From: a virus
Virus record (IMG/VR): IMGVR_UViG_3300017613_000224
Span: 1 to 26,348 of that record
DNA length: 26,348 bases
Reading direction: 5' to 3' (one strand)
The notes beneath the pieces were generated by a model. That model was not told where the DNA came from, searched no databases, and saw nothing but the letters and a program-made list of their open reading frames with translations. Below are positions 2,006 through 26,348 of this stretch, in pieces; positions within the stretch are counted from its first letter, which is position 1; each line of letters starts with the position of its first letter. The translations under genes were made by a program, and so were the position numbers.

Positions 2006-2199
2006 AAAAGAATGAACCTATTTCTGATGGGAAAGTTCATGAAGCAATTCCTATCAGAAGCAACGAATATCAAGAGCCAATTGGGGAAAGTGAAAATGAA
2101 ATGGTAATTCCAAGTTCATTTACGGTTTGCTCAACAGATGACTTGGCTGATAGAATGGTAAAAGATGTTTGGGCTTATCATGAAAGTAGAAAGAAATGA
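2002..2199 (+). CDS. Hypothetical small protein in the head operon
   Basis: Sixty-five residues, acidic in the middle and with a short amphipathic C-terminus (LADRMVKDVWAYHESRKK). No Cys pair, signal peptide or membrane segment is seen. It overlaps both neighbours by ATGA (2002-2005 and 2196-2199), which strongly supports it as a real gene translated together with the MuF-like gene. Function not recognised. Confidence 0.65.
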   Translation: MKKNEPISDGKVHEAIPIRSNEYQEPIGESENEMVIPSSFTVCSTDDLADRMVKDVWAYHESRKK

Positions 2200-3824
2200 G
2201 CATTATCAGTGACAAAGTAGAAGCATTGACAACCGTACCTGATGAATGGGCGGCTGCAATATTTGACTTTCAACCAAAGCTGTTGAACCGTTTAACGAAA
2301 CTTTCATCAGAACTTACTTTGACCAGTGAAGGGTTGATTGAAATGACTGCACAAAATCTGACAAGGATTGAAGCAATCATGGCTGACCTGAAACAATTCA
2401 TGACTTCAGGTGAATACCGTTCAATGGTTCAAAAGTTAGATCAACAATTTATTCAGCAGCAGGTTAATACAGTAGCATATTTTGAAAGTTCATTTGGCTC
2501 TGCACCTGCAACATCATTTGCATCTACTCTTTACAATGTCAACAGGGTTAAAATGCTTGAAACCGTTATTGGTGATGCAGGTCTTGATGCCTTATTGTAT
2601 TCATCAGTTCGTGATACTTTACTGGATGGCGTTGCTTCAGGTGCTTCATATTCTGATATGATTGACAACCTTGAATTGATTAGTGTAGGGCGTGACGATT
2701 TAGAAGGCCGTTTGATGCGTTATTCAAGGCAATTGGTATCTGATACCCTTGCAACAACAGATAGGCAATTCACGCAGATAATAGGCAATGAATTGGGGCT
2801 TGAATGGTATAGGTACGTTGGCGGTAAAATGAAAACAACACGTTGCTTCTGTAATGAACGCAATCAGGGTTATTACCATCATAATGAAGTTCGGGCATGG
2901 GGTGCAGGAAGTAAAAAGGCAATCGGTCAATGCTATGATAAGAAATACACTTGGCAAGGAAGGTTCAGAGGCACAAACGAAGAAAACATATTTGGTTGGG
3001 TTGGCGGTTACAATTGCCAACATTCTCTATTGCCAATATCAGAATTTGATGTTCCTCAAAAGGATGCTGAAAGAGCCGTTTCTTTGGGATATTACAAACC
3101 GACCAAGACAGCGAAAGAACACTTTGGATTTGATGGTGCTTCAGGTTCATCAGCAACTTCATCGAATGTTAAAACATCATATCAGAGCAAAGCAATAATT
3201 GAGCAGGAAATAAAAAAGATTGTTCCTGATGCAAATCTTACTGGATGGAGTGTTTCTCAAAGCTCAACGATGCTTGACACACTGCAAACAATTCCTGCTG
3301 TTGGGCGGCCAAATTTTGTAGGTTCAGGCGCGCAATTTGCAAAAGCAATGGGTAGGCCGTTAGGCAGAAAAGCTAATCAATGGTATGGTGTAGCCAATAC
3401 TACACAGGATTATTCTTTTGCTAAGAAAGCAACAGTAACAACAAGGGGTGTTGGCATAAACGTTAGGCAATTCAAAAATGTAGATGACATTACCAACGCA
3501 AAAATATCAGCACAAGCAAGGTATAAATCAAAAACGGGTAGAAATTATTTTTACAACACTGATGGCAGATTGACACATTTTCATGAAACAGGTCACATAT
3601 TTGACCAAAGATTTGGCAAAGGCAGCGAATGGAAAAGTAAGGTGAATAAATGGAGAAGTGAGCAGCCTTATGATATACTTAAATCTGATAATGAAGCATG
3701 GGCTGAAGCATGGGCGGATTATTTCGGAAACGGTTCAAAAAGAATACCTGATTACGTGAAAACATATATTGAAGAAAGGTTGGTATTAGCAGAAAGCATT
3801 GGTAATAGATTTGATAATTTATAA
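2196..3824 (+). CDS. MuF-like head protein with C-terminal HExxH metallopeptidase domain
   Basis: This 542-residue protein starts with long helices (1-200), then a segment resembling the MuF/SPP1 gp7 minor head protein fold with Cys at 217, 219 and 274 and a conserved-looking GGYNCQHSLLPIS. After a Ser/Thr-rich linker (about 300-330) comes a second domain. It holds HETGH at residues 463-467, the HExxH zinc signature, followed by E500 and E504 in NEAWAEAWADYF, a suitable third ligand as in gluzincins such as the anthrax lethal-factor-like family. MuF proteins are minor capsid components that can be delivered with DNA, and MuF fusions to toxin domains are known from temperate phages. Here the second domain could process virion proteins or act in the host cell; both are inference. 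ATGA overlap with 2002. Confidence 0.75.
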   Translation: MSIISDKVEALTTVPDEWAAAIFDFQPKLLNRLTKLSSELTLTSEGLIEMTAQNLTRIEAIMADLKQFMTSGEYRSMVQKLDQQFIQQQVNTVAYFESSFGSAPATSFASTLYNVNRVKMLETVIGDAGLDALLYSSVRDTLLDGVASGASYSDMIDNLELISVGRDDLEGRLMRYSRQLVSDTLATTDRQFTQIIGNELGLEWYRYVGGKMKTTRCFCNERNQGYYHHNEVRAWGAGSKKAIGQCYDKKYTWQGRFRGTNEENIFGWVGGYNCQHSLLPISEFDVPQKDAERAVSLGYYKPTKTAKEHFGFDGASGSSATSSNVKTSYQSKAIIEQEIKKIVPDANLTGWSVSQSSTMLDTLQTIPAVGRPNFVGSGAQFAKAMGRPLGRKANQWYGVANTTQDYSFAKKATVTTRGVGINVRQFKNVDDITNAKISAQARYKSKTGRNYFYNTDGRLTHFHETGHIFDQRFGKGSEWKSKVNKWRSEQPYDILKSDNEAWAEAWADYFGNGSKRIPDYVKTYIEERLVLAESIGNRFDNL

Positions 3825-4675: not shown

Positions 4676-5998
4676 ATGTGCGGAATAGCAGCAGTTATAA
4701 ATGGAACAGTCGGTGAAGCTCAATCAATGGCTCATGCCATCAGAAGGCGTGGCATCAACACCAAAACAACTGTTCTGAATGAATTGACCGTTTCGTTTGT
4801 TCATTTGCCTATTGTAGATGATATTCCACAACCTGCAACATCAGGTGAAACAACTGTTTGGTTGAATGGCTTTATAAGCAACTGGAAAGAACTTTGTAAA
4901 AAGTACGATGTCAAAGCAAAGAATGACACTGAATATCTTGCGTGGCATCTGAATAACAAGAAACCCAAAAGCGAATTAAACGGCTTCTTTGCCGTTATCT
5001 ATTACAACGGGGCTGTTCATACATTCACAGATAGATATGGCATCAAACAGCTTTACAAGTACAAGTACAGAGGCACAACATATATCTGTTCAGAGGTAAA
5101 AGGATTGAAAGCGGTTATTGACCTGAAGATTGATTTTGATGCGATGGCTGATTGGGAATACAGTCTTGGCGTAATGACTGACCACACAATTTATCAGGGC
5201 GTTGAAAGGGTTGAATGTTTGCCTTTTGTGAAGCCTGAAAAGTTGGTTGAAGGTCAGATTGATTATTACACAGCACAGGTTGAATTGAAAAGACTTTGGC
5301 AACAATCGATTGAAAGAAATAAGTACATGGATGCAGGTGTTTATTTATCAGGTGGCATTGATAGTGGTTTGATTGTGCGTTCATTGGGGTGCTATAGTTT
5401 TTCAGTTGATTACCTGAATGAAAAAAGTGAAATTGACAACATCAAACTGAATACAGCAGGAAATCACTATACACTGATTTGTAATGATTTTACCGAAAGT
5501 CATTACCCTGAAGAAACATTGTTTGCCCTTGATGATTTCAAGGTTGGTTCATGTTATACCAATTTTGCAATTGCTGAACTTGCTTCTAAATTCTGCAAAG
5601 TGATGTATTCAGGTGCAGGAGGTGATGAAGTCTTTAACGGTTACACGCACAGATATGATAAACCTATCAATCAGGTCATTAAACGCACACAGAGCGAAGA
5701 ACGGCGTGAATATGACATAACACACAAAGAATATGATTGGAGGTACTTAAAAGGGATATTGGTTGTTGAAGATAGAATGAGTGGTTTTCATACAATGGAA
5801 ACACGCTATCCTTTACTGGACAATGATTTTGTTGATTTTGCTTTGTCGTTACCTGATGAATATTTGAACAACAAACGTATCTTGAAAGATATTTCAGGGC
5901 TTCATCCTGATGTTATCAATGGAAAGAAACGGGGCTTTTCAAATCCTCACTTCACCAATGATGAATGGGTTGAATTTTGTAAAGAAAGTATTGAATGA
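4676..5998 (+). CDS. AsnB-like glutamine-dependent amidotransferase
   Basis: The protein begins MCGI, so Cys2 becomes the N-terminal nucleophile of a class II glutamine amidotransferase after Met removal. Residues 225-231 read SGGIDSG, the PP-loop ATP-pyrophosphatase signature, and GGDE lies at 315-318, both hallmarks of asparagine synthetase B. At 440 residues it is shorter than typical bacterial AsnB (about 500-640) but both domains look complete. AsnB uses Gln and ATP to amidate Asp. AsnB-like enzymes in O-antigen loci (for example WbpS) instead amidate sugar carboxylates. Sitting between a glycosyltransferase and an acyltransferase, a sugar-amidating role is plausible; making Asn for virion protein synthesis is the alternative. 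Start abuts the upstream stop; overlaps 5995 by ATGA. Confidence 0.88.
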   Translation: MCGIAAVINGTVGEAQSMAHAIRRRGINTKTTVLNELTVSFVHLPIVDDIPQPATSGETTVWLNGFISNWKELCKKYDVKAKNDTEYLAWHLNNKKPKSELNGFFAVIYYNGAVHTFTDRYGIKQLYKYKYRGTTYICSEVKGLKAVIDLKIDFDAMADWEYSLGVMTDHTIYQGVERVECLPFVKPEKLVEGQIDYYTAQVELKRLWQQSIERNKYMDAGVYLSGGIDSGLIVRSLGCYSFSVDYLNEKSEIDNIKLNTAGNHYTLICNDFTESHYPEETLFALDDFKVGSCYTNFAIAELASKFCKVMYSGAGGDEVFNGYTHRYDKPINQVIKRTQSEERREYDITHKEYDWRYLKGILVVEDRMSGFHTMETRYPLLDNDFVDFALSLPDEYLNNKRILKDISGLHPDVINGKKRGFSNPHFTNDEWVEFCKESIE

Positions 5999-6129
5999 TA
6001 ACACCATTGAACAAGTCACAACAACCTTTGAGCCGTTGGAGATTTACCATTGATGGCAAGACAAAACATCTATTTGCTTTGAACAGAAAACACGCTGAAC
6101 AGAAGGCTAAAAAGAACGGTTGGATATGA
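5995..6129 (+). CDS. Small basic protein (44 aa)
   Basis: This short gene is supported by ATGA overlaps with both the amidotransferase (5995-5998) and the acyltransferase (6126-6129). The product is Lys/Arg/Gln-rich: a strand-like part (RWRFTIDGKTKHLFA) followed by a helix (NRKHAEQKAKKNGW). The strand-then-helix order recalls a small AP2/integrase N-terminal-type DNA-binding fold, but it is too short to be sure. Function unknown. Confidence 0.5.
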   Translation: MITPLNKSQQPLSRWRFTIDGKTKHLFALNRKHAEQKAKKNGWI

Positions 6130-6662
6130 CAAGCGAAGAACTTTATTCTGATGAATTTATCAACCTGAATGGCAACTACATTCACAAGACTGCAATCATT
6201 TATTCAAACGTTGAAATTGGCAAAGGGAATATCATCAGAGCCAACACGGTCATTGGTTCAAATGGCGAAATGCGAAAGCCTAAAGATTACGAAGGCACAA
6301 ACATTGACTTTCAGAAGTCATTCAAAGGGCGTGTGATAATAGGCAGCCACAATGTAATTTCTGAACACGTTACAATTCAAAGGCCGTATGATGAAAACGC
6401 TGCTACCTACATTGGAAGCAACAACATAATCATGGCGCATTCGCACATTGGTCATGATGCCATCATTGCTGATGATTGTGAAATCTGTACTGGAGTAATT
6501 ATTGGCGGTTATTCAATCATAAAAAGTCATGTGAAGTTGAAGTTGGGCGTAACCGTTCGCAATCGCTTAACCATTGGCAGGGGTGCTTTGGTTGGTCTTG
6601 GCGGTGTAGTTGTCAAGGATGTTGAAGATGGTGAAGTTGTTTATGGAAATCCTGCTAAATAA
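6126..6662 (+). CDS. Left-handed beta-helix acyltransferase (LpxA-like)
   Basis: The 178-residue protein shows hexapeptide repeats from about residue 17 (IHKTAIIYSNVEIGKGNII) onward, the left-handed parallel beta-helix of sugar acyltransferases. MAHSHIGHD at 103-111 matches the LpxA region holding the catalytic His. The C-terminus VVYGNPAK is the usual end of this family. LpxA makes the first acyl-transfer step of lipid A; shorter relatives N- or O-acetylate nucleotide sugars. It lacks the LpxA C-terminal helical domain (LpxA is about 260 residues), so I favour a sugar acyl/acetyltransferase acting on the product of the neighbouring genes. The start at ATG 6126 gives an ATGA overlap; the TTG two codons upstream is less likely. 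Confidence 0.82.
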   Translation: MTSEELYSDEFINLNGNYIHKTAIIYSNVEIGKGNIIRANTVIGSNGEMRKPKDYEGTNIDFQKSFKGRVIIGSHNVISEHVTIQRPYDENAATYIGSNNIIMAHSHIGHDAIIADDCEICTGVIIGGYSIIKSHVKLKLGVTVRNRLTIGRGALVGLGGVVVKDVEDGEVVYGNPAK

Positions 6663-9893: not shown

Positions 9894-10676
9894 ATGGCAA
9901 AAGAAGAAATCAAAGTTGAAGATGTGTTGGGGTTCATCGGCATTGCAGGTGATGACCTTGATGCTTTAAAAACATCGTTTAACGAAAAGTATGTTCCAAC
10001 CGAAACTCACAACAAAACGTTGGGTGAAGTAAATGGAAAAGTGACACATTCATTGAAGAAACAGTTCAAAGGAATTGGCATTGAATTGACTTCTGATGAA
10101 GTGAAGGATGTTCATACTGTTGACCTTCCTGAATTGTACGCTGCAAAAGCAAAGGCAAAGTTTGATGCTTTTGAAAGTGATAAGAACTTGACGAATGAGC
10201 AGCTTGAAACAAAGTATGGTGATGACATCAAGAAATACAAGCAGCAGTTGGCAGACCTGAATGAATTGAATACTGGTTTAAAAACAGAGTACGATACATT
10301 TAAAACACAGGTTGAAACTGACAAGAAGAATTTTGATGTGAACACCCGTTTGGAAAATGCCAAATCAACTTTGAAGTTTTCTGACCAATCAAGTGAGTTT
10401 GAAAAGATTGGTTTTTTCACATCTATTGAAAGCGGTTTTGATATGACCGTTGAAGATGGAAAAGAGATTGTTCGCAAGGATGGTCATATAGTTATGAGCA
10501 AGACAAACGCAGGAACATCAGCCGATTTCAAGGAAGTTTTGACTGAAGAATTTAAGGCAACAAAATTGGGTGCAGTAGCAGATACGAAAAAAGTTCGTAC
10601 TTTTACAGCAAGTGCAGGTGCGACACCTCCAAATGGCGGTGAAACTGTTAAAAGGGAAACCGCGCCAAGACACTGA
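9894..10676 (+). CDS. Capsid scaffold-like protein
   Basis: A 260-residue, Lys/Glu/Asp-rich protein with a predicted coiled coil around residues 85-150 (for example KKYKQQLADLNELNTGLK) and a flexible Thr/Gly/Pro-rich C-terminus ending in basic residues (VKRETAPRH). This is the usual build and position of a scaffolding protein, located immediately before the major capsid gene. Scaffolds guide capsid assembly through a basic C-terminal tail that contacts the coat and then leave or are degraded. No protease signature is seen in it. The gene starts two bases after the 9455 stop. Assignment is from composition and position. Confidence 0.65.
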   Translation: MAKEEIKVEDVLGFIGIAGDDLDALKTSFNEKYVPTETHNKTLGEVNGKVTHSLKKQFKGIGIELTSDEVKDVHTVDLPELYAAKAKAKFDAFESDKNLTNEQLETKYGDDIKKYKQQLADLNELNTGLKTEYDTFKTQVETDKKNFDVNTRLENAKSTLKFSDQSSEFEKIGFFTSIESGFDMTVEDGKEIVRKDGHIVMSKTNAGTSADFKEVLTEEFKATKLGAVADTKKVRTFTASAGATPPNGGETVKRETAPRH

Positions 10677-10705
10677 TAAATTTCTGAAGCTGACCCTTCT
10701 TAAAG

Positions 10706-10765
10706 GTCTTTAGGGCTACATCAACAGCCAATAGTTGAACAAAAAAATTGTTAAACTCTAAAGAC
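10706..10765 (+). promoter_or_regulatory. Structured leader of the major capsid gene
   Basis: GTCTTTAG (10706-10713) pairs with CTAAAGAC (10758-10765). Inside it, GGCT/AGCC (10714-10717 with 10726-10729) and AACAA/TTGTT (10738-10742 with 10748-10752) form two hairpins, giving a three-way junction that ends 8 bases before the ATG at 10774. An alternative GACC/GGTC hairpin (10692-10695 with 10705-10708) would break the outer stem. Stems are short and A/T-rich, so chance is possible. It could stabilise the capsid mRNA or control its translation. Confidence 0.4.
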
Positions 10766-10773
10766 TAAAAAAA

Positions 10774-11847
10774 ATGTCAGCAGGATTATGTGAAATTATT
10801 GATTGTCCAACTATGCAGAAGCATATTGACGACACTTTCAGGGCTGGAAATATGCGACCTGAAAAGCTACCTTTTCTTTCTTATGTAATGTCAGAAGCGA
10901 ACAGAAACGCTTCTTCATTCGAGATTGCAGACAAAGGTAAAGTGCGACCAGTTCAGGTTGTTTATGACCAACCATTATTGACTTCAGAAGTTGGTTCTGA
11001 TGGTTCAGGTTGTTCAGCTTCAACAGAAGAATGTGATACATACCAAACGTATGATTTTGATACAACTGCAAACCGTTATTCAGAATTCACAGTTGGTTTG
11101 ACTGACTTGGTTGGAACGTGTGAAGAAAATTCAGCGTTCATTGCAAGGAAAATCCAAAAGCGTATTAACGCAATCAAAGAAGCCGTTTCAGAAGATTTGG
11201 CTGATGCAGCAACTTCAGACAGGGGTAATTGGTCTGTTGATACTGCAAACGTTGATGGAACGAATTTGAACGCTACTGATGTACTTGAAGTGAATACTTT
11301 ACTTACAGCAGGAACGCCAAGCATTCCAAACGCTGCAATCTTTGAGCAGTTAAGAACTGCAATGGAAATGAGCCGAATTGAAGAAGCAGGTATCTTTGGA
11401 GGCAATGACCTTGCTTCAGCAGTACGCAGAGCAATGGCAGGTGGAGTTGATAGCTTAGGTTACAACTTGGCAACCATGCTTGAAAGATACGGTGTTGCAG
11501 CAATGTATGACCGACACTTGACTGACAGCCTAACGGCAATCAATGCAACCAACCTTGCAGTTGGTATTGGTTCAATTGTTCCAGTAGGGTTCAGCCTTTA
11601 TGAAGCTGATGGTGCTTCCGTAAATAACGGAACTGATATTGCTCAAACGATGTTTGACCCTGAAACGGGAATGAAGTTTGACCTTCGTGTACAGCGAGTC
11701 TGTGACGATTGGAATTTCAATATCAGAGCCACATACCAATTTTACACTTGGCCTGATGATTTGTATCAGTCAGGAAGTAACTTTGAGGGCGTTAAAGGTC
11801 TTGCAGCTGTTGAAGTTGTATGTGATGACCTTCAGGCTTGTGCCTAA
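10774..11847 (+). CDS. Major capsid protein
   Basis: A 357-residue protein directly after the scaffold-like gene and before a strong terminator, the position and length of an HK97-type major capsid protein without an attached protease domain. The N-terminus (MSAGLCEIIDCPTMQ) is short; the middle is Asp/Thr/Ala-rich with alternating helices and strands; the C-terminus (FYTWPDDLYQSGSNFEGVKG) resembles capsid P-domain endings. No membrane or catalytic motif is present. It is preceded by a structured A-rich leader instead of an SD sequence and followed by two hairpins, consistent with an abundant, stabilised mRNA. The HK97 fold is inferred, not visible in sequence. Confidence 0.75.
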   Translation: MSAGLCEIIDCPTMQKHIDDTFRAGNMRPEKLPFLSYVMSEANRNASSFEIADKGKVRPVQVVYDQPLLTSEVGSDGSGCSASTEECDTYQTYDFDTTANRYSEFTVGLTDLVGTCEENSAFIARKIQKRINAIKEAVSEDLADAATSDRGNWSVDTANVDGTNLNATDVLEVNTLLTAGTPSIPNAAIFEQLRTAMEMSRIEEAGIFGGNDLASAVRRAMAGGVDSLGYNLATMLERYGVAAMYDRHLTDSLTAINATNLAVGIGSIVPVGFSLYEADGASVNNGTDIAQTMFDPETGMKFDLRVQRVCDDWNFNIRATYQFYTWPDDLYQSGSNFEGVKGLAAVEVVCDDLQACA

Positions 11848-12931: not shown

Positions 12932-13029
12932 TATTATTGAAAGGACATAAAGAGTATTTGACAATCTGCAAATTTTGCCCTTTGTTCGGTGGTTATCAGA
13001 ATAGCATCTTTGAGATATGGCTCAACTGA
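12928..13029 (+). CDS. Possible 33-residue CxxC peptide
   Basis: Starts at ATG 12928 in an ATGA overlap with the upstream stop and ends at 13029, overlapping the next gene by 13 bases. The product contains CKFC and is rich in aromatic residues. It fills the 85-base gap between two structural genes. Coupling supports it, but it is short and could be only a translational bridge. Confidence 0.4.
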   Translation: MILLKGHKEYLTICKFCPLFGGYQNSIFEIWLN

Positions 13030-13574
13030 CAGCAAAACAATGGACTGCAAAAATGCGTAATCAACTGAAGAAAATTCAGGAGGGCATACCATTGGCAATT
13101 GCAGCGCAATCAATTCACGCAGATAGAATGGTTCGCATCTTTGACACTGGTTCAGTTTCAAGGGGTTACAATAAGACCAAAGAAATTTGGATTGAAAACA
13201 AGTTGGTTCGGGGCGGTGCAACAAATTCAGGTAAAACAGGCCGAGCCAAGAAAACAAGTTATTTCAAGAGTTACTTTGATGCAAAGGGCAAGATGGGTTT
13301 CAATAATAGCCATGTTAACTTCAGACTGACAAACGACCTGCAAATGGATTTAGCCAATTCACAGATTAATCCTGATACTGGTAAAGTGAATGTTGGAAAG
13401 GTCATAAAAGTCAGCCCGTTGTTGTATGTTGAGAAACTAAGGCGTGAAACAAATCAGGACAAGTTGAAAGGGTTGATTAAGCGTTTCGGTGATTTTACAA
13501 GATTTACACAGGGCGAAAGGGATAAATTCGACAAGATAATTTTCAAGGAAACTGTCAAATTGTTAGAAGCATGA
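13017..13574 (+). CDS. Neck / head-tail joining protein (gp10-like)
   Basis: A 185-residue basic protein. Its N-terminus is a long amphipathic helix (TAKQWTAKMRNQLKKIQEG), followed by strands and a Lys-rich C-terminus. Length, basic charge, long first helix and position between the capsid/connector genes and a tail-completion-like gene fit the HK97 gp10/tail-completion group, which closes the neck and meets the tail. No sequence signature proves this. It overlaps the next gene by ATGA at 13571-13574, so the two are probably translated together. Confidence 0.5.
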   Translation: MAQLTAKQWTAKMRNQLKKIQEGIPLAIAAQSIHADRMVRIFDTGSVSRGYNKTKEIWIENKLVRGGATNSGKTGRAKKTSYFKSYFDAKGKMGFNNSHVNFRLTNDLQMDLANSQINPDTGKVNVGKVIKVSPLLYVEKLRRETNQDKLKGLIKRFGDFTRFTQGERDKFDKIIFKETVKLLEA

Positions 13575-15271
13575 TAAAAGTGATTGTTGACATATTGAAC
13601 GCAAGGTTGGAAACAACAGGCCGAATTGATAGGCGTTATTGTTTGGCTGAAAATAGAGAACGCTCAAAAGACAAAGCATCTATTCCTTATGCGTATCAGG
13701 GCAAAGGTGAACTGAAGGCGGTTGACATTGGAAACCCTTCTTTGAGTTGGTGGAAATTGACCGACAAAGCAAGTTTCACAGAAGCACCAACAACTGCATC
13801 AGTCAATAAGATGGTTGGCACATATCCTTTGCGGTTGGTTGTTATGTTCAGGCGAAAGGATAGCACGAAAGATGACAGCTTCTCACCTTCATGGTTGGCT
13901 GAAGATATTAGCCAATTATTGACCTTTTCAAATGGTGACCTGAAAACAGCGTTAAAGGCTTCTGATGTGCGTGTGAATGTATCTTCAACAGATTTCAACA
14001 CAACATCTGTTTGGAATGAAGAATTTGAGAATTTACAATTCACTGACCCAAAGTACAAGACAGCTTTGGTTGCTTTGGAATTATCGGTTGTTGTAACTGG
14101 ATTGAAATCATGTTGGGAAAATGAATGTGATTATGACAATGACATTCTGCACATCTTTGACTTCTGCAAACAAGGCGTTGTTGATAGGCTGACAGATGCA
14201 CAACAACAATGCTTGATTGATGCTTTATGTACTTGCGCTGATGCAAGTATCGAGATCAATGGAACACCATTCACAACAGTTGCAAGTGGTGCAACGTATG
14301 ACCAAGCGATACACGATAGCGCGGGTTCTGACGTAGGAACTAACGCTAACCCTTCGGTAGTTTCGGATACAACAGTCCAGAATAACGCAACACCAACATG
14401 GTCAGATACGGTTGAAGCTGAAGGAACAATAACACTGGCACAAGCTAAAGCGTTAGATAGTGACGGCTCAACCGATCTACTGGCTAATTATATTCCTTCG
14501 GCTGACGGTCATATGTTTACTTGTACTCCTGCAACAGCAGTACCTTATGAAAGACCAAGTGATTGGCTTGACCTTCCATCAATAGAGGCTTCAGACCAAC
14601 AGTTTTCAGCCTTAGTTGCAGTTTGGGATGCGTACGGTAACCCTTTGACATTTAAGTTCACTTGTGATAGTGGCGATTATGATGTTGATTGGGGTGACGG
14701 GAATACTGAAACCGTTACATCAGGAACGTGGGCAGAGCATATTTACGATTATGCTGATGTGGATGATCTAACGAGTAGAGGTTATAGGCAAGCCATTGTA
14801 ACCGTAACACCAACAACTGGTGGCAGCGTATTCACTGCCGTTAATCTAAACCAGAAACACACTGCACTTGCAAATGCCATAAGGTATTCTACACCGTTAT
14901 TAGATATTCGCATGGCAGGTAGTTCTATCAGTTCTTGGACTGTAAGAAACATTAACGGAAATACAGGTATATACTTTGATTATTTAGAGCAATTTGAATG
15001 GGTAGGGGCTAACTCAATTACTAATGCTCAATATTTTTTCTTCATCCTGCGAGTGCTAAAAAAAGTAGTGGCATTAGATACTTCTAATTTCACATCGTTC
15101 AAACAGTTTCATTACGATAATCGGTTATTAGTAGAAACTCCAACGTACGATACATCTAGCGCAAATGATCTTAGTTCAATGTTTTATCTCTGTTATTCAA
15201 TACCAGTGGTAAAAGTGACTGATATGTCGGGAGCAACAACAATTAAATCTATGTTTTTAAGTACATACTGA
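13571..15271 (+). CDS. Tail-completion-like protein fused to PKD/BspA-like adhesin; ends at in-frame TGA
   Basis: Residues 1-190 form a compact alpha/beta domain fitting a tail terminator/completion protein. Residues about 210-300 are a Gly/Ser/Thr-rich stalk. Residues about 330-420 include DVDWGDGNTETVTSG, a PKD-like beta-sandwich strand. From about 440 come BspA-like (DUF285) repeats with MF-x-x-C units. The TGA at 15269-15271 breaks one of these repeats; the same frame then continues without another stop to 15706. TGA is a real stop elsewhere here, so this is a nonsense change, programmed readthrough, or a sequence error. The 3' part from about 14280 has different codon habits from the flanking genes, suggesting acquisition. 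Neck domain plus adhesin suggests surface-exposed whiskers or a receptor-binding appendage. Confidence 0.6.
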   Translation: MIKVIVDILNARLETTGRIDRRYCLAENRERSKDKASIPYAYQGKGELKAVDIGNPSLSWWKLTDKASFTEAPTTASVNKMVGTYPLRLVVMFRRKDSTKDDSFSPSWLAEDISQLLTFSNGDLKTALKASDVRVNVSSTDFNTTSVWNEEFENLQFTDPKYKTALVALELSVVVTGLKSCWENECDYDNDILHIFDFCKQGVVDRLTDAQQQCLIDALCTCADASIEINGTPFTTVASGATYDQAIHDSAGSDVGTNANPSVVSDTTVQNNATPTWSDTVEAEGTITLAQAKALDSDGSTDLLANYIPSADGHMFTCTPATAVPYERPSDWLDLPSIEASDQQFSALVAVWDAYGNPLTFKFTCDSGDYDVDWGDGNTETVTSGTWAEHIYDYADVDDLTSRGYRQAIVTVTPTTGGSVFTAVNLNQKHTALANAIRYSTPLLDIRMAGSSISSWTVRNINGNTGIYFDYLEQFEWVGANSITNAQYFFFILRVLKKVVALDTSNFTSFKQFHYDNRLLVETPTYDTSSANDLSSMFYLCYSIPVVKVTDMSGATTIKSMFLSTY

Positions 15272-15706
15272 TTAAAAAACATAGAATACACTGTCCCAAT
15301 ATCATCTACTTGTACATCAATGGCTAATGCGTTTAGAGAAAGTGGTATAAATATATTGCCTACCGATTGGGATACAAGCGCAGTCACTACCATATCAGAT
15401 ATGTTTAGGCAGCAAGCAAAGTCGAAATCATCATCTATAATTCCTGATTGGGATTTTAGCGGAGTAACAACCGCACCTTCGTTCAACACATTTAATGGTA
15501 AAAATATGAAACGCTTTTTAGCCACTGGACTAACTAAAACATTTACTATTAATTCTAACCTAATGGGAGAAGATGAGATAAATGAAATGTTCACCAATCT
15601 AGGCGATGGTGGTGGAACGGAAACCGTAACGGTGACAAACAATATTGGTTCAGCAACTTGTGACCCAACAATAGCGACAGCTAAGAATTGGACAGTAGTA
15701 ACATAA
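15272..15706 (+). CDS. C-terminal BspA-like (DUF285) part after the in-frame TGA
   Basis: The same frame as the 13571 gene continues from 15272 to TAA 15704-15706, adding 144 residues. The first codons (LKNIEYTVPISSTCTSM) complete the repeat cut by the TGA. Further units (DWDTSAVTTISDMF and IPDWDFSG) are typical of DUF285 leucine-rich-like repeats, and the end (ATAKNWTVVT) is the usual final strand of this fold. A separate start at ATG 15320 is possible, but no promoter or SD is seen, so readthrough or loss of expression is more likely. These repeats bind host surfaces in bacteria; here probably the outer end of a phage adhesin. Confidence 0.6.
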   Translation, partial: LKNIEYTVPISSTCTSMANAFRESGINILPTDWDTSAVTTISDMFRQQAKSKSSSIIPDWDFSGVTTAPSFNTFNGKNMKRFLATGLTKTFTINSNLMGEDEINEMFTNLGDGGGTETVTVTNNIGSATCDPTIATAKNWTVVT

Positions 15707-15710
15707 TATC

Positions 15711-16022
15711 ATGGAAGGATTTTACAAGCAACAACCAGATGGTTCGTGGAACTATGGAAAGAATGTGTATAATAAGAATTATACATTGACAGAAGCCGAC
15801 CACGAAGAACATGAATACCCTGTTGATGGTTGGGTTTGGCATGATGAAGCGCCAAGAGAGGCTATTGTGTTACTTCATGTAAATGACAACATTGAAGAAA
15901 GTTCATGTAGCGTGAAAATATATTTTTTGGGTGAGGAACTTCAGTTTGATGGCTTCACCTATAAAGATAACCATTGGACTGATGACATGGTGATTGATTG
16001 GGCGTGGGAAAAGTTGAAATAA
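15711..16022 (+). CDS. Hypothetical acidic protein after the adhesin
   Basis: A 103-residue acidic protein, rich in Trp, Tyr, Asp and Glu (MEGFYKQQPDGSWNYGKNVY at the start). It looks like a small beta-rich soluble domain, with no membrane or signal segment. It follows the adhesin by 4 bases and is probably cotranscribed. Position suggests a chaperone or assembly protein for the appendage, or a virion component; this is inference. Confidence 0.6.
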   Translation: MEGFYKQQPDGSWNYGKNVYNKNYTLTEADHEEHEYPVDGWVWHDEAPREAIVLLHVNDNIEESSCSVKIYFLGEELQFDGFTYKDNHWTDDMVIDWAWEKLK

Positions 16023-25658: not shown

Positions 25659-26348
25659 GTGAACGTTTTATTGGTTGCGTTCGGAAAGCGAGGTTATGGG
25701 TTAATGACTCACAACCTCGCTTTGTCATTACGGCATCATTCGCCAAATGTCAAACTGCACCTGTTCATCAGTGAAGAACTAAAGCAGTATGTAAACTCTG
25801 AACACTTTGAGAACATCAGAACCATTGAATTTGATGATTTCAATGACCATCGGGGTGTTGCACCTGTAAAGATCAAAACACGTTTATATGAATTTGGGCG
25901 TTCTCTTGGCCTTAAGTCGTTTCTTTATCTTGATGTGGATGCGATATGTATGAACGACATAAGTCCTTTCTTAGAAGCTCTAAAAGGGCGCGACATAGCA
26001 ACAGAGATTATAGGGCAAGGCGGCAAGAACGACAATATCAATTATTCTATTTGGGCATCCAATCAAAAGATTTGGGATTTCTTCAACCTTGATGACGATG
26101 ATACGCTTTGCGGTATTCAATCCAGTTGGATGTATTTAGAGCAATCAGAGGTTTGTGATAAGTTGCAAGAGTATTTGAATTGGTATTCTTTAAAGGGTTG
26201 GCCTATCCATATGCTGAAACAAAAATGGGCGCATGGTTATCCTGATGAACTTTCCTATCAAGGCGTTTTTGCAAAGATGGGGTTGATGCCTCAACCACCA
26301 ATTACTGACAAGCACAGAATATTGTTTGGCAACAAGAAGAACAAAACA
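25659..26348 (+). CDS. Glycosyltransferase (GT8-like, DXD), 3'-truncated
   Basis: A frame starting at GTG 25659, 16 bases after the tail-gene stop, stays open to the window end (230 codons). No ATG in this frame lies upstream near the gene. The start (NVLLVAFGKRGYGLMTHNL) is the nucleotide-binding segment of small glycosyltransferases. D92-V-D94 in FLYLDVDAIC is a DXD metal/nucleotide-sugar motif, and the next residues (NDISPFLEAL) follow the usual family-8-like pattern. It differs from the two enzymes in 3998-7424. Being next to a tail gene suggests virion or host-glycan modification. A strong hairpin lies in codons 9-22. Confidence 0.72.
   Translation, partial: MNVLLVAFGKRGYGLMTHNLALSLRHHSPNVKLHLFISEELKQYVNSEHFENIRTIEFDDFNDHRGVAPVKIKTRLYEFGRSLGLKSFLYLDVDAICMNDISPFLEALKGRDIATEIIGQGGKNDNINYSIWASNQKIWDFFNLDDDDTLCGIQSSWMYLEQSEVCDKLQEYLNWYSLKGWPIHMLKQKWAHGYPDELSYQGVFAKMGLMPQPPITDKHRILFGNKKNKT
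25685..25723 (+). promoter_or_regulatory. Strong hairpin inside the start of the 25659 gene
   Basis: AAAGCGAGGTT (25685-25695) pairs perfectly with AACCTCGCTTT (25713-25723). After one A-C mismatch, TGGGT (25697-25701) pairs with ACTCA (25707-25711), leaving a 5-base loop. There is no T-run after it (GTCATTA follows). It could attenuate transcription after the tail gene or limit translation of the glycosyltransferase. Confidence 0.7.

Follow-up and report, generated by a model that had tools for sequence, protein, structure and literature searches.

The leucine-rich-repeat proteins that most closely resemble the one described here are the BspA-like and DUF285 proteins, and the known BspA-like proteins are bacterial, including BACOVA_04585 of Bacteroides (PDB 4fs7). 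Surface proteins of the DUF285/TIGR02167/PARCEL type carry DUF285-type repeats of ∼25 residues, and DUF285 coding DNA is known for its dyad symmetry (PMC2996958). With respect to the loss of adsorption functions, the best-described case is that of phage lambda, in which the side-tail-fibre gene stf was mutated in 19 of 21 low-adsorption isolates, 15 of them by frameshift; loss of this dispensable gene lowers adsorption and can be selected, and its authors proposed that the gain and loss of fibres suits changing habitats (PMC2762979). Premature stops that may later revert have also been discussed for Bacteroides populations (PMC11379459). In the literature on natural nonsense alleles of phage fibres, or on inversions within phage genes, nothing directly relevant was found.

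The stretch of DNA analyzed here (the window) is the whole IMG/VR virus record IMGVR_UViG_3300017613_000224, of 26,348 bases. An earlier, sequence-only reading had proposed that one TGA splits a neck-adhesin gene on the forward strand, and its coordinates proved exact: the frame from 13571 to 15706 is open except for the TGA at 15269-15271, the sole in-frame stop before the terminal TAA (15704-15706). The TGA is codon 567, preceded by 566 codons counted from the ATG at 13571 and followed by 144 open codons. Under the standard code, the 5' part (13571-15271) encodes 566 amino acids, of which residues 1-487 share 43% identity with the corresponding protein of the nearest relative, termed L002 (contig IMGVR_UViG_3300034073_000825), while the 3' part (15272-15706), in the same frame and ending at the TAA, encodes the remaining repeats and a conserved C-terminal cap. 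The upstream gene (13017-13574, forward strand), probably a head-tail gene, has a TGA stop of its own that overlaps the ATG at 13571, and its product is 60% identical in L002. A small forward-strand gene of unknown function (15711-16022) lies right behind the adhesin, as it does in the otherwise different phages L002, L007, L010 and L014, and shows where the adhesin gene truly ends on its 3' side.

The predicted modular organization of the protein was analyzed with an AlphaFold2 model of the read-through product, in which the TGA was read as Trp (code 4) for the purpose of folding only. Most of residues 325-711 were modelled with pLDDT above 90, in the order of a beta-rich PKD-like module, a single continuous leucine-rich-repeat solenoid and a closing C-terminal cap. 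The PKD-like beta-sandwich (approximately 14543-14858; RPsDWL...DVDWGDG...) is common to many members of the family, has a sub-threshold match to Pfam PKD and shows predicted strands with pLDDT mostly above 85. The solenoid (approximately 14859-15559) is interrupted by the TGA, which occupies a variable position in the MFxxCxxL turn of one repeat; residue 567 lies mid-solenoid in the model, with pLDDT above 90 on both sides of it. The cap (15560-15703, start approximate; ..NEMFTNLG..TIATAKNWTVV) was delimited by alignment and recurs as a capping module in 68 distinct viral genes among the best 80 of 170 viral loci.

The read-through protein belongs to the DUF285/BspA-like group, scoring 31.2 bits against Pfam PF03382 (curated cutoff 25). 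This is above the score of either part alone (25.1 bits for the 3' part, which is at the cutoff, and 14.2 for the 5' part, which is below it) and bears out the earlier claim that residues on both sides of the stop complete one repeat series. The solenoid aligned with PDB 4fs7 over 283 residues (VIA-align Z 15.7, rmsd 4.1), a likeness of fold at only 9% sequence identity. The whole read-through model had no match under E 0.001 in a Foldseek search of the PDB, probably owing to dilution of the model by its poor N-terminal half. The best match in BFVD was a phage "26-residue repeat" protein of 697 amino acids, aligned over 722 columns. The best-ranking structural matches in the viral library included A0A6J5NAQ5, a "Bacterial surface protein 26-residue repeat" of an uncultured Caudovirales phage (E 5e-22), and the PKD protein M4QPG4 of Synechococcus phage S-SKS1 (E 1e-12), which is also matched in sequence, at 32% identity, by the family member in L010. 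Both come from different phages and are listed as whole proteins. Two things set the window gene apart from the PARCEL proteins, with which it has in common the repeats and an inverted repeat within coding DNA: its repeats belong to a probable virion protein of a phage, alongside a neck-like N-terminus, a PKD-like module and a C-terminal cap, and inverted-repeat density is not raised in its phage family.

The N-terminal domain (13571-14290) is 57% identical to that of L002 and would be kept whole if translation ends at the TGA. Residues 1-240 were poorly modelled (mean pLDDT 43.5, from two sequences). Tail terminators and neck proteins made up most of the 50 best PDB matches of this N-terminal model, including lambda gpU and proteins of R4C, A-1(L), T5 and Chi, although each match was weak (best E 0.016); searches of Pfam, PHROG and the PDB with the sequence of the domain returned no convincing match. 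Judging by its position, the gene sits among or after probable head-tail genes. "Neck-adhesin" is a fair name, with moderate support, in which the "neck" label is predicted from the weak fold matches together with gene position. Across the family it is the N-terminal module that differs from phage to phage, whereas PKD-like module, repeats and cap are found again and again, a pattern that an exchangeable adhesin would be expected to show.

The 144 codons after the TGA are real coding sequence, carrying the conserved end of the protein. An open stretch of this length has a chance probability of 2e-5 given the base composition and of 2.5e-4 in a first-order Markov simulation. Codon usage past the TGA prefers the frame used before it (+0.16 bits per codon, versus -0.08 to -1.41 for the five other frames), and identity to the end of the L002 protein is ∼42% over the C-terminal 67 residues, compared with 43% before the TGA. 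A second stop would have an even chance of arising after about 18 random substitutions, yet the tail contains none; either the break happened recently, therefore, or selection still acts on the tail.

The sequence-only reading had also held that TGA is a normal stop in this DNA. It terminates 20 of the 40 other listed frames, and several of these ends agree with those of relatives in the L114 alignments; a reassigned code in which TGA is sense is ruled out by the many window genes that end with it. No tRNA gene, and thus no suppressor tRNA gene, was found in the 26 kb window. Insertion of selenocysteine was likewise rejected, since no suitable hairpin follows the UGA and the Cys position of the repeat is occupied by a different residue in the window. 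The locus is one ancestral gene with one stop, no further decay and the standard code.

The occurrence of such breaks was examined further among related genes. In L002 the syntenic gene is a single frame of 955 codons, preceded by the same upstream genes and followed directly by the same small gene; L002/L114 thus present the same protein in one frame, flanked on both sides by the same neighbours in unchanged order. A search with a profile of the C-terminal cap provided a wider sample, from which the best 80 of 170 viral loci, together with 19 loci in bacterial genomes, were taken. After removal of duplicates, the best 80 viral loci yielded 68 distinct genes, 53 of which are complete at the 5' side; a gene was scored as unbroken when it was open for at least 250 codons ahead of the cap motif. 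By this measure 52 of the 53, including L002, are unbroken and lack the stop. The earlier reading had named related phages with two clearly separate genes, each with its own start, as the case that would speak against a split gene; the relatives show one continuous gene instead.

The sole broken gene among the 53 belongs to an unrelated phage, L008 (IMGVR_UViG_3300035698_003454). It contains one in-frame TGA (5842-5844), which stands where the first canonical DUF285 repeat would have its Cys; beyond it, six further repeats and the cap are intact. A search for relatives of L008 outside the shared C-terminal module found none. In both phages the TGA is followed by T, and both breaks lie past the N-terminal and PKD-like modules. 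A stop-tolerant tblastn survey likewise returned just two breaks with good support in the family, those of the window and L008 (25 and 44 supporting alignments for the pair). Including the window, the frequency of broken genes is 2 of 54 (95% CI 0.5-13%) in the family as sampled from the best 80 of 170 loci, an initial estimate of how common such alleles are among these adhesins. Breaks that are rare and recurrent suit sporadic loss rather than a conserved device. Near-identical genomes were sought by exact pattern, phage megablast and tblastn, with none found, and the upstream gene, the N-terminal domain and the gene at 10774-11847, when used as queries, led to no contig other than that of L002.

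The three options originally offered for the break (nonsense mutation, readthrough and assembly error) had been left unranked, and the evidence now favours the first, while readthrough is unsupported. We consider it probable that the TGA arose naturally and recently as a sporadic nonsense mutation, or is a nonsense allele that segregates in the population, and that the adhesin domain it affects is dispensable. The frame 13571-15706 would then be one gene for a virion protein comprising a neck (tail-terminator-like) domain, a linker, the PKD-like module and a capped DUF285/BspA adhesin, whose translation would end mid-solenoid at codon 567. Placed on the read-through model, termination at this point yields an uncapped half-adhesin with the neck-like N-terminal domain whole: the truncated product would retain the front, presumably the part that assembly requires, but would be missing the cap and about half of the solenoid. 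The phage may still assemble, losing only accessory binding, with an accessory adhesin that is weakened or absent. On this reading the stop would be real in the population, and the phage with the truncated protein would be viable, with adsorption lower or altered as in the lambda stf mutants. The second, unrelated phage with the same kind of break suggests that such alleles recur at low frequency. Two features sit less comfortably with a nonsense mutation: both family breaks read TGA then T, as a small readthrough signal could also give, and the TGA of the window lies inside a rare inverted repeat, which a plain point mutation does not predict.

The lambda and Bacteroides precedents may apply to the window gene by analogy. 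The likeness to stf would be that a single small mutation is enough to disrupt an adsorption gene that the phage can do without (PMC2762979). The stf mutants, however, are mostly indels in homonucleotide runs and were observed in the laboratory, whereas the window genome is environmental and has a single nonsense codon in the gene; its adhesin, unlike stf, is fused to a probable neck domain. Were the stop real, it would provide a natural example beyond lambda in which an accessory adhesin is given up while the neck part of the same protein is kept, and would support the view that phages lose adsorption genes and regain them when conditions change.

Among the alternatives, an error of assembly or consensus fares best, although we regard it as unlikely; here the population would have a sense codon, and the TGA would be a wrong base or a minority variant kept by the assembler. 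In favour of such an error, the source is a single metagenomic contig, 52 of 53 relatives are intact and intact homology runs on past the TGA. Isolated wrong bases are, however, uncommon in consensus contigs. Moreover, no comparable in-frame stop interrupts those other genes of the window that could be aligned to L114 on the coding strand, which argues that the contig is not generally poor. As a separate observation, the first part of the window gene at 2196-3824 (542 amino acids) matches a frame of only 296 amino acids at L114:1125-2012, the relative's gene being shorter or split.

Programmed readthrough, in which a fixed share of ribosomes would read the UGA and place short and long adhesins on each virion, appears improbable. 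It would account for a downstream part that is intact and in frame, and for the similar single TGA within the repeats of L008. There is precedent in a reported UGA readthrough of ∼6% in B. subtilis and in length variants of phage structural proteins made by frameshifting (PMC6316719). The stop is nevertheless not conserved, being missing from L002 and the other unbroken relatives, and in both phages the RNA beyond the stop folds more weakly than shuffled sequences (z +1.0 to +2.3). The base at +4 is U in the window and in L008, an efficient context for termination, rather than the leaky C. A regulated extension would be expected at a domain boundary, whereas this stop falls in the middle of the solenoid, and the window provides no tRNA gene for its decoding.

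The inverted repeat at the TGA was noticed post hoc, during the RNA-folding test. Its perfect 11-bp arms (left, 15248-15258; right, 15275-15285; positions on the forward strand) enclose a 16-nt loop that holds the stop. The 26 kb window has no more than two perfect inverted repeats in which the arms measure 11 or longer and the loop 3-30, against expected counts of 0.39 per window and 0.018 in the adhesin gene; the other, with a 17-nt loop, lies at 25685-25723, within the final open frame, which runs from 25659 to the end. When the 16-nt loop is flipped the frame is kept and, by inspection, is free of stops. The loop might invert between its arms, either when the polymerase switches templates or through the action of a recombinase, making and undoing the stop and thereby switching the adhesin between full and truncated forms. 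Spacer inversions between arms of more than 9 bp arise by template switching in yeast coding sequence (PMC8604942), and gut bacteria contain invertons with repeats of 10-40 nt (PMC11892184); shared with these systems are short inverted repeats inside coding sequence and a flippable spacer. In contrast, the loop of the window is known from one contig in one orientation, an orientation-free pattern scan having returned no further contig, and its 16 nt exceed the spacers of 2-5 bp in the yeast cases (PMC8604942).

Several results make such a switch very improbable. When synonymous codons were shuffled with the protein fixed, the TGA fell in such a loop 3.2% of the time, and the genes of the family are poorer in these repeats than their flanks (0.017 versus 0.059 per kb). 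The residue profile shows no preference for the flipped orientation, and L008 has no inverted repeat at its TGA. The dyad symmetry known from PARCEL DNA offers an ordinary explanation for the inverted repeat. Should the loop flip, this virus would carry an invertible switch of very small size.

The weakest alternative, to which we give almost no credence, is that a truncated neck protein cooperates with a C-terminal cap fragment re-initiated at the first in-frame ATG (15320-15322, forward strand), which lies 48 nt past the stop, in hosts of a type that may not need Shine-Dalgarno sites, but which occupies the place of a repeat residue and resembles a repeat Met rather than a dedicated start; initiation inside the repeat would give an uncapped half-solenoid, and none of the 5'-complete viral relatives, L008 aside, is split.

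For the other long genes of the same loci, the alignments were too few per gene to serve as a baseline nonsense rate, and no excess of stops in the adhesins is claimed. Two minus-strand alignments of long genes, at L047:2587-3244 and L070:3122-3779, contain 8 and 9 in-frame TAG/TAA codons, respectively, and could reflect a stop-recoded phage, an alignment in the wrong frame or a decayed gene. On a contig of Flavobacterium supellecticarium (L101), two related adhesin genes of the family are present ∼4 kb apart, at 5143-6333 and 10413-11675.
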